DNA from: Pseudomonadota bacterium
GTDB lineage: Bacteria; Pseudomonadota; Gammaproteobacteria; Burkholderiales; Burkholderiaceae
Direction of reading: 5' to 3'
DNA: 15,179 bases
Assembly (NCBI GenBank): GCA_021778935.1
Contig: JAJYBQ010000026.1
Coordinates: forward strand, 1 to 15,179
Shown here: piece after piece, positions 3,238-11,354 of the stretch
Layout of the letters: each line of letters opens with the position of its first letter
Numbering within the stretch: position 1 is the first letter of the stretch
Program-made: the position numbers and the translations under genes
Notes under the pieces: generated by a model
Told to the model about the DNA's origin: nothing
Seen by the model: only the letters and a program-made list of their open reading frames with translations
Database searches by the model: none

Positions 3238-3453
3238 ATGAATCGAGGAATGATCGCGATGCTCGCGCTCAGCAGCGTGCTTGCCGTGGGCGGGAAAAAT
3301 CACAAGAACCCTGCGACGGAGTCGCTGATCCACGACGAGCAGGCGCTGCTGGACGAGATGACCTGGTGCGGCAAGCAACGGGATCCCGAATCCATTCACG
3401 GCTGCCGCAACGCCGGGGACGCGCTGGCGACGATCGCCGCGCTGGGGCAGTGA
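3238..3453 (+). CDS. EexN-like small protein lacking the lipobox cysteine
   Basis: A 71-residue protein related to the lipoprotein at 1-390: over the 35-residue core, 23 positions are identical, including C44, C56 and the W-C-G-K-Q and C-R-N-A motifs. The ATG at 3238 is preceded by GGAGG (3228-3232) with good spacing and by a sigma-54 promoter. Residues 1-18 still form a hydrophobic export-like segment, but where the sister copy has L-A-A-C-G-G this one has L-A-V-G-G, so the lipidated cysteine is gone. An in-frame three-base deletion explains this simply. The protein also ends right after the cysteine-pair domain and lacks the sister's coiled-coil extension. It may be a soluble or N-anchored periplasmic variant, or a decaying copy. 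A role in entry exclusion is only suggested by the motif. Confidence 0.72.
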   Translation: MNRGMIAMLALSSVLAVGGKNHKNPATESLIHDEQALLDEMTWCGKQRDPESIHGCRNAGDALATIAALGQ

Positions 3454-3545
3454 GGCCGGGGCAACGGTGCATGGGGCGCGCGCTGTGCATCGGGGCAGTG
3501 CAGCGATGGGCAGAATGGGTTTCTTGGAAAAATCGGGGGTGCATC

Positions 3546-4100
3546 ATGAACGCACGAGCGTGCATGTGGGCGGCGAAGGAGGGAATGGTCCCGCGCTCGG
3601 ACATTTCCCATGAGCGCATGGTCGAGGCGCTCGACCGCAGCGGCCTGGTCCACGGATGGAGCCGACCGCAGGTCGACCACTTGGCTGAGCTTGCGGCATT
3701 GCGGATCTTGTCTCCCGGCGTGCACGGCGACGACCGCCTGGACGATGCATCACGCGACGGACTGGCGATCCTGCTCGATGGGGATGTCGAGATCGACGCG
3801 ACGATCGAGGGTGAATCGTTTTTCCTGCACCTGCAGACATGCGGCGACGTGGGCCGCGCAGCCAGTTTCTCGGGCGGCGGCACGCTGCGGATCCGCACCC
3901 GTCTGACGGCGCGGCGCAAGACCACCATGCTCCTCCTGCAGCGGTCACGCCTCGAAGGCGTGCGGGGACTCCCGCCCGTGCTGATGCAGCGTCTGCTGGG
4001 CAACCTGGTTCTCCACGTCCACGGCATCGCCCGGCGCAGCTACGCCGACACCGAGCAGTTGCGCCAATACCTGTTCGGGGCCGCCGCCGCGACGCCGTGA
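3546..4100 (+). CDS. cyclic-nucleotide-binding-fold protein without HTH domain
   Basis: A 184-residue protein whose residues 45-165 resemble the beta-roll and following long helix of CRP/FNR-type sensor domains: the stretch L-A-I-L-L-D-G-D-V-E-I (73-83), the turn around C-G-D-V-G (99-103), and P-P-V-L-M-Q-R-L-L-G-N-L (143-154). There is no C-terminal helix-turn-helix, and the phosphate-binding cassette lacks the usual glutamate (V-G-R-A where G-E is expected), so cAMP binding is doubtful. The ATG at 3546 has a moderate GGGGGTG Shine-Dalgarno; an in-frame ATG at 3471 is possible but adds residues with no domain resemblance. It lies 92 bases after the EexN-like gene and converges on the minus-strand gene ending at 4165. 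It may be a protein-interaction or non-canonical sensor domain; the partner is unknown. Confidence 0.7.
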   Translation: MNARACMWAAKEGMVPRSDISHERMVEALDRSGLVHGWSRPQVDHLAELAALRILSPGVHGDDRLDDASRDGLAILLDGDVEIDATIEGESFFLHLQTCGDVGRAASFSGGGTLRIRTRLTARRKTTMLLLQRSRLEGVRGLPPVLMQRLLGNLVLHVHGIARRSYADTEQLRQYLFGAAAATP

Positions 4101-4164: not shown

Positions 4165-4773
4165 TCAGCGTCCTGTCACCACCCCGGTGAGCAGATTGGG
4201 AACGTAGTGACAAGCGGAGTTCGGCGATGCGTGCCCGCCCACCATCTCGACATGCTCGCCGACACGAACGTCCATGCCTACAGGGACGAGAACCGGCACC
4301 CGCACATTCGGAGGTGCGGCGTCCGGATGAAAAAGTGCACGCAGGTTGTGGACATACGCCGGATCGATCCGTCCGTTGGCGAACTCCTCGGAACGCGGAA
4401 TGAGCGCCATCGCTTCCGCCTCCGACAGGAAACCCTCGATGCGCCCTGCGACTGCGGCGGGCGGGTTGAGCGCGACGCGCATCGGACTGCCCGCACCGCA
4501 GTTCTGGTCTGCAGCCGCGATCTCGCTGGTGAGCCCCTCGTCGACGGATTGCAGAGCCTCTCGAGCGATCGTTTGCACCGCTGCCGACGATTGCTGCGTT
4601 GCGGGGGTCGACACGCGGTCTGCGCGGCTCGATCCCCACGGCGGATCGAGCAGATACAAACCCGTGCAGATCGTTGCTCCTAGCAATGCAAGCTTCCATC
4701 CTGCAGAACCTCGCCAGAGCAGGCTGGCGCTGCCGGCCAAGGACTTCTTGGGGGAAAAGCGATCGTCCTTCAT
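4165..4773 (-). CDS. single-pass membrane protein with periplasmic domain, AAA+ partner, unknown function
   Basis: A 202-residue protein that is not recognised. The start at 4773 is chosen because its ATG overlaps the stop of the preceding ATPase gene as ATGA, a typical sign of translational coupling. Residues 1-25 are basic and cytoplasmic; residues about 26-42 form one transmembrane helix; the rest would face the periplasm. The periplasmic part has a Ser/Thr/Ala/Gln-rich linker (50-90) and two cysteines, C92 and C188, that could form a disulfide. Residues 157-180 are rich in valine alternating with turns (V-R-V-P-V-L-V-P-V-G) and suggest a small beta domain. Coupling implies fixed stoichiometry with the AAA+ protein, so it may be its substrate adaptor or sensor. 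An alternative start at 4797 is less likely. Confidence 0.7.
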   Translation of the reverse strand: MKDDRFSPKKSLAGSASLLWRGSAGWKLALLGATICTGLYLLDPPWGSSRADRVSTPATQQSSAAVQTIAREALQSVDEGLTSEIAAADQNCGAGSPMRVALNPPAAVAGRIEGFLSEAEAMALIPRSEEFANGRIDPAYVHNLRALFHPDAAPPNVRVPVLVPVGMDVRVGEHVEMVGGHASPNSACHYVPNLLTGVVTGR

Positions 4774-6029
4774 GAGGATCGTTCGGTCTGCGGGCACTCG
4801 ACCGGCTTGGCCACGACCCCGTCAGCGCCTTCGATCAGCGCCACGCATCGTGCGCCCTGCTGCTTGGCACTGATCAAGGAATCCGCAATGGATTCCTCGA
4901 TGGCGCGGACGAGATCGCGTGACGATGCCGCGTCTGCAAGCTTCTCTTGGCGGCGCATCATGCGGTAGAGCAATTCCGGATCGATGCCCTGATTCCCGAC
5001 CGCAAGGCCGTATCCCTGAATCATCTGCTCGATCTCCAGCGCCGTGACCCGTGCCACATCGAGACCGTAGAGGCGGGAAAACACGAAAATCCGGTCGATG
5101 CGGTTGAGCAATTCGGGGGCGAATCCTGCCTCCTTCAGCGCGTTGGTTGCCGCCCGTCGCATTTCGTCGGGATCGTGTGCATATTGCCGACGGATGTCTT
5201 CCAGCGTGTCCGGTGCGGCATTGGTGGTCAGGATGAAAACGGCCCGCGTCGTGGGGATCTGGCGTCCATCGGACGCCTCGGTGACAAACCCGTCGTTCCA
5301 GGCCGTCAGGAATTTCTTGTGGATTTCCGGATCGGCCTTCTCGATCTCGTCGAGAAGTACCACGGCATCCGGAGTGTCGCGCAATCCGCCGGTAAGTTTG
5401 CCGTAACTATCCGATCCGACATACCCCTTCGGTGAACCGAAAAGGACGGTGGCGCCCATGCCCCGTGAAAGTTGGGTCATATCCAGATGCAGCAACTTGC
5501 GATGCAACTCCGCGGCGAGTCGCTTGCCAAGATACGTCTTGCCGGTTCCCGGATACCCGGAGAACAGAAAGACGCCCACCGGCTTACCGCGTTGCTGCAG
5601 GGCCAGGCGCCTGCGGATCTGCGCGGCGAGGTCGTCGCAGATGGCATTCTGTCCGATCACACGGGATTTCAATGCATCGGCCAGGGCTGCCGCATCGATG
5701 AACACCGCATCGGCATCCTGACTCATGCGGCCTTCGAGCGCCGCGCGATTGGTGAGTCGGTCGAGTACGTCCATCATCCACCTCCTGCGTACGATCCACG
5801 CCGGCAGACGGCCGGCACCGGCAAGCAGCCCGAACGCCACGATTATCCAAAAAAATATCGCCAGTGCGAGCAGTCCGCCTTGCCATGCCATTGCGAAGGC
5901 TGCCAGAGCCGATGCCCGGTTCGCAAGATTTCCTCGGTAATGCCACACCGTCTCGGCCAACGCGATCGTCAGCGTGACGAAAAACAGAAATGGCAGAATG
6001 CGATTGATTAGCGTCGTCGTTCGGCCCAT
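4770..6029 (-). CDS. membrane-anchored Clp/Hsp100-type AAA+ ATPase
   Basis: A 419-residue ATPase with two predicted transmembrane helices (about 9-28 and 50-72) followed by a cytoplasmic AAA+ module of the ClpB/ClpX class. Visible elements: V-I-G-Q-N at 124-128, Walker A GYPGTGKT (158-165), the pore-loop motif GYVG (202-205), Walker B VVLLDEIE (223-230), sensor 1 T-T-N (268-270), arginine finger R310 in E-L-L-N-R-I-D, and sensor 2 R371. The pore loop argues for threading or unfolding of a protein. No ClpP-binding loop and no protease motif are seen. It starts 61 bases after hsdR without a clear terminator, and its stop overlaps the next start. The Shine-Dalgarno before the ATG at 6029 is weak (GTGGAAA), but this start is needed for the first helix. 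Its specific role is unknown. Confidence 0.85.
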   Translation of the reverse strand: MGRTTTLINRILPFLFFVTLTIALAETVWHYRGNLANRASALAAFAMAWQGGLLALAIFFWIIVAFGLLAGAGRLPAWIVRRRWMMDVLDRLTNRAALEGRMSQDADAVFIDAAALADALKSRVIGQNAICDDLAAQIRRRLALQQRGKPVGVFLFSGYPGTGKTYLGKRLAAELHRKLLHLDMTQLSRGMGATVLFGSPKGYVGSDSYGKLTGGLRDTPDAVVLLDEIEKADPEIHKKFLTAWNDGFVTEASDGRQIPTTRAVFILTTNAAPDTLEDIRRQYAHDPDEMRRAATNALKEAGFAPELLNRIDRIFVFSRLYGLDVARVTALEIEQMIQGYGLAVGNQGIDPELLYRMMRRQEKLADAASSRDLVRAIEESIADSLISAKQQGARCVALIEGADGVVAKPVECPQTERSS

Positions 6030-6090: not shown

Positions 6091-9303
<3,213 letters not shown>

Positions 9304-9617: not shown

Positions 9618-10074
9618 CTATGCCGTCTGCCGAAGCAAATGGCCCCAAAGCGTTTCGTCCATTATGTCACCGATGTTTTCGCGCCAGCCGGATGCGATCG
9701 TTTCATAACCGGATTCCCCATTGAACACCACCATCCAGTCATCGGTCTGCCCGCGATAGCGTTCCAGGAAATTCACAAGGGAACGGCGGTAGCGCCGGCG
9801 CACGTCCGATTCCGGTACGTCGTGTCCGCCCGCAATCACCCGCTGAGCGATCCGCTGCAAACAAAGCCCCACGGAATCCAGGTACACCAGTACCAGCGAA
9901 ATCGAGTACCCCCGCAGGCGCGCTTGCCGAAGGTGTTGCTCCAGACTCCTCCCCGGCAAGGTCGTCCGCACCCAGATAACGCAAGCGGTATTCATGCGCA
10001 TAGGCACGCGCGAGCGTCGTCTTGCCTGCCCCGTTTGGGCCGCCAACGATGATCAGACGCGGAGGTTCGTTCAT
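9618..10074 (-). pseudogene. Zeta-toxin-like P-loop kinase with internal deletion and frame change
   Basis: The ATG at 10074 overlaps the hsdS stop as ATGA. The first 38 codons give a P-loop start with Walker A GGPNGAGKT and then Y-L-G-A-D-D. At about 9960-9966 the family resemblance passes to the next frame, which reads TTLPGRSLEQHLRQARLRGY and continues to a TAG at 9618 with the conserved-looking G-G-H-D-V-P-E, R-R-R-Y-R-R-S-L-x-N-F and W-M-V-V-F-N. In Zeta-like kinases about 40 residues normally separate the G-A-D and E-T-T-L-x-G-R-S elements; here they abut. So this is an out-of-frame internal deletion. The original frame runs on to a stop at 9739 with unrelated sequence. The truncated product would keep the P-loop but lose the catalytic middle. 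It sits between hsdS and hsdR. Confidence 0.75.
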
Positions 10075-11354
10075 GCCAGGACACTCTCGGCAGCTTCCAA
10101 CGCCTCCGGAATGCGCAGACTCCCGGAGATGAGGCGAGGGAGCAGCGCATCGCGAACGCCGCCAAGCGCGCGCATAGATTGCTTGGCGGCCACGATACGG
10201 TTGTACAACGGCTGACAAAAAGCACCGAACGCGCGAGCGACATCCGGTGTAGGAACGACGATGCGGAATCGGTCGATGTCAGCCTTACCCAAGTGAATGA
10301 CGGTGGTCGCGGTCTCGGTCGCCTCCACGTGTGCAAGCGGCGCAGCAATTGCCGACATCACGAAGGCAGCGGAGTGGCCATTCGTCGGTGCGAACATGCA
10401 AATCCGCTGATTCATCCAGGCGACCTCGCCGCCCCACAGGTACGCGCGGAACTCGCCGTCCATGCCGACCACGATGTCGCCTGGCCGAATCTTGCAGCCT
10501 TTCGGATGCACCTCTAGGGTCCACACCCCCGGCGCCTCATCCTTCAAATCCCGAATCCGCACCAGCGGCAACCCGTTGCCATCGGTGTTGAACCGCTTTG
10601 ATGCAAACGGAGCGCCGTAGCGCACATCAGCAACTTGATAAACGTCACCGACTCGCCACCCCTTCGGAATCGGCCCCAACTCCGACTCCTCGAACTCGCT
10701 CGGGAACAGCGCCGCCGTTGCGGCATCCATGCCTTCCGGCTCGCGGCCTTCGGCCTTGGCGCGCACCGGGTCGAAGTCGATGAACCAGCTCTTGAACAGG
10801 GCTTGGGCGATGGATTCGAGGGTGGCGTTGGTTTGGCGGAGGAGGTCGATGCGATCGTCGAGTGCCGATAGAAGGCGAGCCGCAGACCGCCGCAAACCCG
10901 GCTCGGGGCAGAAGAATTGGTATGCGGCAACCGACTGCCAAGCGACCCGCTGTCGCCCAGAGGTTCCTTCCATTCGTCCAATGGCGTACTCACGGAACGA
11001 GGGGTCGCGGCAGAGGTAGTAGATGAAGTCGTTGTCGGCCGGGTCACTTCCAGATAAGACAATGAACTCGGTTGAGCCTTCCCCAACCAGTCCAACGCTG
11101 AGGCAGCGAACCTGCGCTGTCTTGCCGTTCTCCAAGCACGGTGTGATTCGCGCGAGAAGAGTGTCGCCATTCTGGAAGTGAGCCCCTGCGCCCTTCGCTG
11201 TTCGCAATGAAACGTCGCGCAGAGCAATGTCCCGCGTATGCTGTGGAAGCGCTGCCATTTCGACGAACGGGACCGGTTCACCCTTGGCAACCCGTCGCAG
11301 CGGGTTGATACGGGCGATGCCATCCAGTCTTACTAGACGCACGTCAGACCGCAT
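10071..11354 (-). CDS. hsdS: type I restriction-modification specificity subunit S (HsdS)
   Basis: Determines the bipartite DNA target of the type I enzyme and docks HsdM and HsdR. The 427 residues show two target-recognition domains (about 1-150 and 230-390), each followed by a conserved helical spacer: [16 protein letters not shown] with the typical [13 protein letters not shown] (about 166-198), and [11 protein letters not shown] near the C-terminus. The central linker E-L-G-P-I-P-K-G-W opens the second recognition domain. The start overlaps the hsdM stop by 11 bases, and the stop overlaps the start of the Zeta-like gene as ATGA, so translation is probably coupled across the set. The recognised sequence cannot be told from the protein. 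Confidence 0.95.

Follow-up and report, generated by a model that had tools for sequence, protein, structure and literature searches.

Membrane-anchored AAA+ remodelers are already known; an Hsp100-type ATPase with a swappable periplasmic partner appears to be new, and our literature searches found no description of the ATPase/partner pair reported here. Msp1 belongs to an AAA+ clade that differs from the AAA_2 type, and it is not known to have a dedicated operon partner. The Msp1/ATAD1 proteins are anchored in the membrane, have no protease, and are expected to pull membrane proteins (PMC7018516); we take Msp1 as the model for the work proposed below for the pair. FtsH with its membrane partner LapB is a membrane-anchored AAA+ protein under membrane-protein control (PMC8943139, PMC9356133) and serves us as the model for that kind of control. 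Dodola is presented as a two-gene system with a ClpB-like ATPase (PMC11514479), and the account of the vWA-MoxR iSTAND systems lists NTPase systems in which a membrane segment is followed by Sel1, OmpA, PEGA, or PASTA domains (PMC7159879).

The window (the whole stretch of 15,179 nucleotides that was analyzed) carries at 4770..6029, on the minus strand, a gene for a membrane-anchored AAA+ ATPase of the Hsp100 type with 419 residues; all features of the pair given below lie on this strand. Its two hydrophobic N-terminal segments are predicted membrane helices at about residues 11–30 (5940..5999) and 51–70 (5820..5879), with approximate ends judged from sequence and hydropathy, and the AAA+ module C-terminal of helix 2 is predicted to be cytosolic. 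Alignment placed a juxtamembrane linker at W84 to E99 (5733..5780), in which W84, D87, L89, R91–N94, L98, and E99 are invariant among 20 aligned ATPase sequences. The Walker A motif GYPGTGKT (residues 158–165; 5535..5558), the pore loop KGYVG (201–205; 5415..5429), and Walker B LLDE (225–228; 5346..5357) were located by alignment and pattern search, and every pattern tested (Walker A, pore loop, Walker B, sensors, arginine finger, and linker) was present. The best Pfam family was AAA_2 (E 1.8e-30). ClpB was the best NCBIfam match, at 146.6 bits versus a cut-off of 1232, and the protein fell below the cut-offs of the curated full-length Hsp100/Clp families (ClpA, ClpB, ClpV, and others); in PHROGs the same AAA core matched phrog_4871 (ATP-dependent protease; 179.9 bits). 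The motif of the ClpP-docking loop is of the IGF/IGL type; the ATPase contains no [IVLMP]G[FL] tripeptide (the loose form of that loop), Pfam found no peptidase family in it, and the NCBIfam model FtsH_fam scored 13.0 bits versus a cut-off of 600. The Pfam gathering score for Torsin was missed (26.0 bits vs. 27). ClpB_D2-small, the Pfam family of the D2 small C-terminal domain, was absent from the Pfam matches (E up to 0.1), yet many phmmer alignments reach residue 384–387. A preliminary description of this DNA had proposed a two-helix anchor fused to an Hsp100 module with GYVG and without protease or ClpP loop, and each of these elements was borne out.

Compared with the second AAA+ module of Hsp100/Clp proteins (ClpA, ClpB, ClpC), the window ATPase shares the AAA_2 core, both Walker motifs, GYVG, the sensors, and the arginine finger, but it has 419 residues, a single AAA+ module, two membrane helices, and no ClpP-type loop. 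Its assignment to AAA_2 puts it in another AAA+ clade than Msp1/ATAD1, and it differs from FtsH/LapB in having no peptidase domain and a partner whose head is predicted to be periplasmic. Because no peptidase matched and AAA_2 is the best Pfam family, we count the pair as a member of neither Msp1 nor FtsH. All PADLOC matches of the ATPase were weaker than its ClpB match. Membership in Dodola was rejected since DolB (55.4 bits, lower than the 146.6 bits for ClpB) matched on the AAA core only and the partner had no PADLOC match at E up to 0.1. Unlike the vWA-MoxR iSTAND systems, the pair has no vWA, MoxR, or STAND domain above the Pfam cut-offs, and its ATPase is of another type.

The ATPase belongs to a distinct family. 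Among 8000 candidates scored, phmmer returned 1677 proteins at E 0.001 or better, the best with 86% identity; 114 of the best 120 have 403–443 residues and the other six have 329–359. A family profile applied to the genomes of eight relatives gave 325–712 bits at nine places, which are eight loci with one tandem pair among them, and no more than 148 bits anywhere else, far from ClpA/ClpB, in agreement with the earlier claim that this is not a housekeeping Clp. One scan of 84,980 species genomes yielded 73 loci (L numbers below), mainly from Proteobacteria, a lower bound because the scan relies on exact conserved peptides; two genomes had two loci each (L048 with L057 and L051 with L067). Among the carriers are the laboratory strains Methylomonas methanica NCIMB 11130 (L029) and Variovorax sp. 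Root411 (L024). In samples of the two main classes (at most four to six candidates scored per listed genome), only the genome at the sample center had a copy at E 1e-60 (one of 369 and one of 289 genomes), and the family is therefore rare and patchy. No confirmed relative was found among viral contigs.

Patterns were counted in 79 family ORFs from 74 loci (the 73 and the window): Walker A in 75 (missed by L061, the first copy of L068, L069, and L071), Walker B and sensor 1 in 78 each, the arginine finger in 76, and the pore loop and sensor 2 in 64 each. Five loci (L056, L058, L066, L067, and L068) have a doubled ATPase with a hydrophobic N terminus on one copy and not the other, the N termini of the L068 copies being judged from sequence only. 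The anchored copies of L056 and L058 lack the pore-loop and arginine-finger patterns, and both copies of L066–L068 lack the pore-loop pattern. Such tandems of anchored and unanchored ATPases suggest mixed rings with a division of labor. Five Microvirga loci (L044, L046, L048, L049, and L052) have an ATPase whose pore loop deviates from the pattern and have neither the partner nor the third gene described below; a conserved small gene (cluster c14) lies upstream of this ATPase, and the flanks are conserved too.

The single-pass partner, of 202 residues, is encoded directly behind the ATPase at 4165..4773. An ATGA stop/start overlap (4770..4773; gap −4) joins the two genes, consistent with translational coupling; the partner most likely starts at ATG 4773, with the ORF lister giving GTG at 4797. 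A model placed its one membrane helix at residues 24–42 (4648..4704), and the predicted topology is N-in with the C-terminal domain in the periplasm. At E 0.1 the partner matched nothing in Pfam, NCBIfam, PHROGs, or PADLOC, which fits the earlier view of the pair as undescribed. Counting as partner any next gene that has 100 codons or more and encodes a hydrophobic N-terminal segment, we found one directly behind the ATPase in 67 of the 74 loci: 35 overlap or abut, 29 are spaced by 1–20 bases, and three by 31, 37, and 160 bases. Since this gene order recurs so widely and relatives reach 86% identity, the pair is more than a chance arrangement. The seven partnerless loci are the five from Microvirga, L036 (contig end), and L043 from Moraxella, where a 90-codon piece carrying the motif described next lies 123 bases beyond the ATPase and the partner region consists of several short ORFs. 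A search with the partner returned 16 proteins including the window's own, and a profile search returned 19; three of the nearest ATPases and three partners appear to be from the same genomes, which suggests the same pairing there.

Ahead of the membrane helix, the tail of the window partner carries LWRGSAGWK (residues 19–27; 4693..4719), a form of the motif L[WY]x5[WFY][RK]. This motif occurs in 60 of the 67 partners and within the first 62 residues of four of 902 other ORFs of the same loci, counts for which the motif was derived from the same partner sequences and, where ORFs competed (L010 and the window), the motif-bearing one was chosen as partner; the strict form is absent from the other seven partners. 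More independent is the search of 15 whole genomes with a profile of 26 tails, which omitted those of the genomes of L020, L023, L037, and L063 and included relatives of theirs. All its matches lie behind the ATPase: 14 of the 15 genomes have them, G005 with two tandem copies; G001, where the partner (L005) lacks the motif, has none. The Cardiobacterium locus (L035:11227-12999) has two tandem partners with the same tail motif.

Tail and helix are thus the constant part of the partner, whereas the heads differ between lineages. In the window the exchangeable head is a predicted periplasmic OB-like barrel domain (about residues 103–198; 4180..4467). Across 27 aligned partner sequences Cys188 (4210..4212) is invariant and Cys92 (4498..4500) is conserved at 90% or more, and the two may form a disulfide in the window protein. 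The single pass and the two cysteines, like the ATGA coupling, had been read correctly in the preliminary description. By BLAST, the heads beyond the helix fell into groups of 30, 20, 11, 2, 2, 1, and 1 members with no detectable similarity between groups (the labels of L019, L035, and L043 were assigned by eye). The group of 30 has a Cys/Trp-rich head, with L019 set apart by eye, and the 16 members scanned gave nothing in Pfam at E 0.1; the group of 20 has Sel1 or TPR repeats above the Pfam cut-offs in all three members scanned; the group of 11 contains the window partner with its OB-like head.

On a quick tree of 74 ATPases, evaluated without a shuffled control and with L024 and L071 on long branches, the head type changes at least nine times. 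The clade of the window ATPase (L001–L005 with L039; support 94, just below the starred level) has the window head type throughout. One of the two cleanest exchanges is L014, with a head labeled Ig-like from a sub-threshold Pfam match, within an OB-head clade (L010, L015, and L038): it is 55% identical to L010 and L015 over 33 residues of tail and helix, with no significant match beyond. The other is L025 (Sel1) beside L026 and L040 (Cys/Trp), with 39%–45% identity in tail and helix. Between the heads of the exchange pairs nothing significant was found, the best E being 0.22 where there was any match. L019 compared with L053 and L012 gave 36%–39% in tail and helix and a best E of 0.054 between heads. 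Over all 2145 pairs, identity in tail and helix had a median of 21%, a 90th percentile of 42%, and a 99th of 67%, so the sister tails, at 39%–55% near or above the 90th percentile and under the 99th, are only moderate evidence. At L042:11242-12575, a region without a Pfam match, the partner has been reduced to tail, helix, and a Pro-rich linker, and the product of the gene that overlaps its end starts like a signal peptide, as though the head were now a separate secreted protein.

A third gene, for another single-pass protein, lies beside the pair in 53 of the 73 loci and is absent from the window. Its products, of 185–313 residues among those listed, have invariant aspartates within a predicted beta-sandwich, and 26 of them gave nothing better than E 0.017 in Pfam. 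The gene lies upstream of the ATPase in 51 loci; in L054 and L057 it follows the partner. It accompanies all 20 Sel1-type partners and 27 of 29 of the Cys/Trp type, the exceptions being L026 (contig starts inside the ATPase) and L069 (short ATPase frame); it is missing from all 11 loci with window-type partners (10 testable, L004 having no room upstream), from both with Ig-like partners, and from L019. Among 15 genomes, 13 have exactly one copy of it, all but those of L005 and L024. Its presence changes at least six times on the quick ATPase tree, with some absences due to contig ends. Directly behind the Sel1-type partner of L059, L062, L064, L065, and L073 (Bradyrhizobium) lies a gene for a multi-pass membrane protein (cluster c19), perhaps a fourth subunit, and L051 and L070 have genes resembling it in the same place.

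We suggest that the pair may be the core of an inner-membrane protein-remodeling machine in which the partner acts as a receptor with a replaceable periplasmic head, and give this reading a probability of about 0.45. We infer it because the motor is anchored, its coupled partner is dedicated, and a constant tail and helix carry differing heads; the Microvirga ATPases with no partner, the seven partners short of the strict motif, and the four ORFs without the Walker A pattern count against it. The ATPase would form a hexameric ring on the cytosolic face of the inner membrane, and the partner would dock on it through the LWxxxxxWR tail and the membrane helix, although the conservation of the tail could instead serve membrane insertion. 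The head, here perhaps a disulfide-stabilized OB-like barrel, would bind a particular envelope target, and, fueled by ATP hydrolysis, the GYVG pore would then pull on either the membrane protein so recruited or the partner, so that a membrane or periplasmic client would be dislocated or remodeled. The ATPase might thus pull on a client or on the partner, or might only signal. The third, beta-sandwich protein may complete the complex in most relatives, with the window clade doing without it. If true, a protease-free Hsp100 ring at the inner membrane would extend the known designs of membrane-anchored AAA+ machines and let cytosolic ATP act on the periplasm or cell envelope, and the conserved tail motif and natural head exchanges would make docking and specificity testable by mutation and domain exchange. 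That it founds a class of its own among ATP-driven envelope machines, as an inner-membrane Hsp100 ring with one connector and interchangeable heads working in the ATP-free periplasm, is a more tentative and rather doubtful proposition.

Other readings give the partner a different role. The ATPase might grip the cytosolic tail and extract, unfold, or hold its partner as an on/off switch for the periplasmic head, so that the partner would be the substrate. We consider this unlikely: the window protein has the GYVG pore loop and the full set of ATPase motifs, genomes have one tail-bearing gene each (two in tandem in G005), and the short N-terminal tail could be an engagement site, but in the window just 18 residues of that tail precede the motif, the motif stands against the membrane and not at a free end, and a dedicated motor removing only its own neighbor would be costly. 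It seems improbable, too, that the pair is a regulator in which a signal sensed by the head switches the ATPase, and the ATPase in turn remodels a client, cytosolic or in the membrane, that has no relation to the partner. A conserved connector bearing sensor heads that can be exchanged would be typical of signaling proteins, and Sel1/TPR heads suit protein binding; the flanks, however, vary between lineages, and the pair shows no consistent linkage to a client, kinase, or regulator.

We regard as more improbable still the proposal of the preliminary description that this is an anti-phage or other conflict module traveling with restriction systems. As described, the pair does share its strand with hsdR, whose frame ends at 6091, and begins 61 bases beyond that end; the family's rare and patchy occurrence would suit such a module, the exchange of outer domains can be a sign of an arms race, and some NTP-dependent conflict systems place envelope domains, Sel1 among them, after a membrane segment (PMC7159879). 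Against it, when the window hsdR, hsdS, hsdM, gyrB, and pgm products were compared by tblastn with the other 73 loci (flanks of up to 10 kb, often shortened by contig ends), the single match at E 1e-5 was a stretch of L067 weakly resembling hsdM (21% identity); hsdR and hsdS had none. PADLOC matches were few and mostly broad among 239 neighboring ORFs of at most 900 residues (from 248 near ORFs of at least 180), scanned at E 1e-10 in sets of 120 and 119 without a control set; these statements cover the best 25 of 82 families in the first set, many of which are models of the same kind. The most frequent families listed were mad3 (four proteins in each set), mad8 (two and three), and mad2 (three, second set), and single neighbors matched reverse-transcriptase, GajB/UvrD, Orf5, DEDDh, HEC-06, and viperin models. 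In Pfam, the best 25 of 134 families for the first 120 neighbors mostly concerned regulation and metabolism (ABC transporters, GGDEF proteins, response regulators, histidine kinases, and metabolic enzymes), so that the surroundings look largely ordinary. Three loci of the window clade (L002, L003, and L039) share downstream genes (clusters c38–c40) that read as ispD, ispF, and truD, and the IspF family YgbB of Pfam matched two neighbors. The viral contigs and the ATPase's PADLOC scores, given above, also weigh against a conflict module. As the neighborhoods lean away from defense, most of the defense proposal falls by the preliminary description's own standard, while the envelope location stands by prediction. 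Given how the neighborhoods of other loci differ, the restriction neighbor looks peculiar to the window, and the place of the pair beside it looks accidental.

Two further features of the window were noted. Between hsdS and hsdR, at 9618-10218 on the minus strand, a kinase-like gene is apparently split over two frames: the ORF at 9618-10046 had no Pfam match, and we call the gene kinase-like because the overlapping frame 9739-10218 holds a P-loop-like stretch; it may resemble zeta-type kinases. An ORF on the plus strand (3366-4100), whose 3549-4100 part had no Pfam match at E 0.01, converges on the 3′ end of the partner gene and by eye looks as if it encodes a small protein of the cyclic-nucleotide-binding type.
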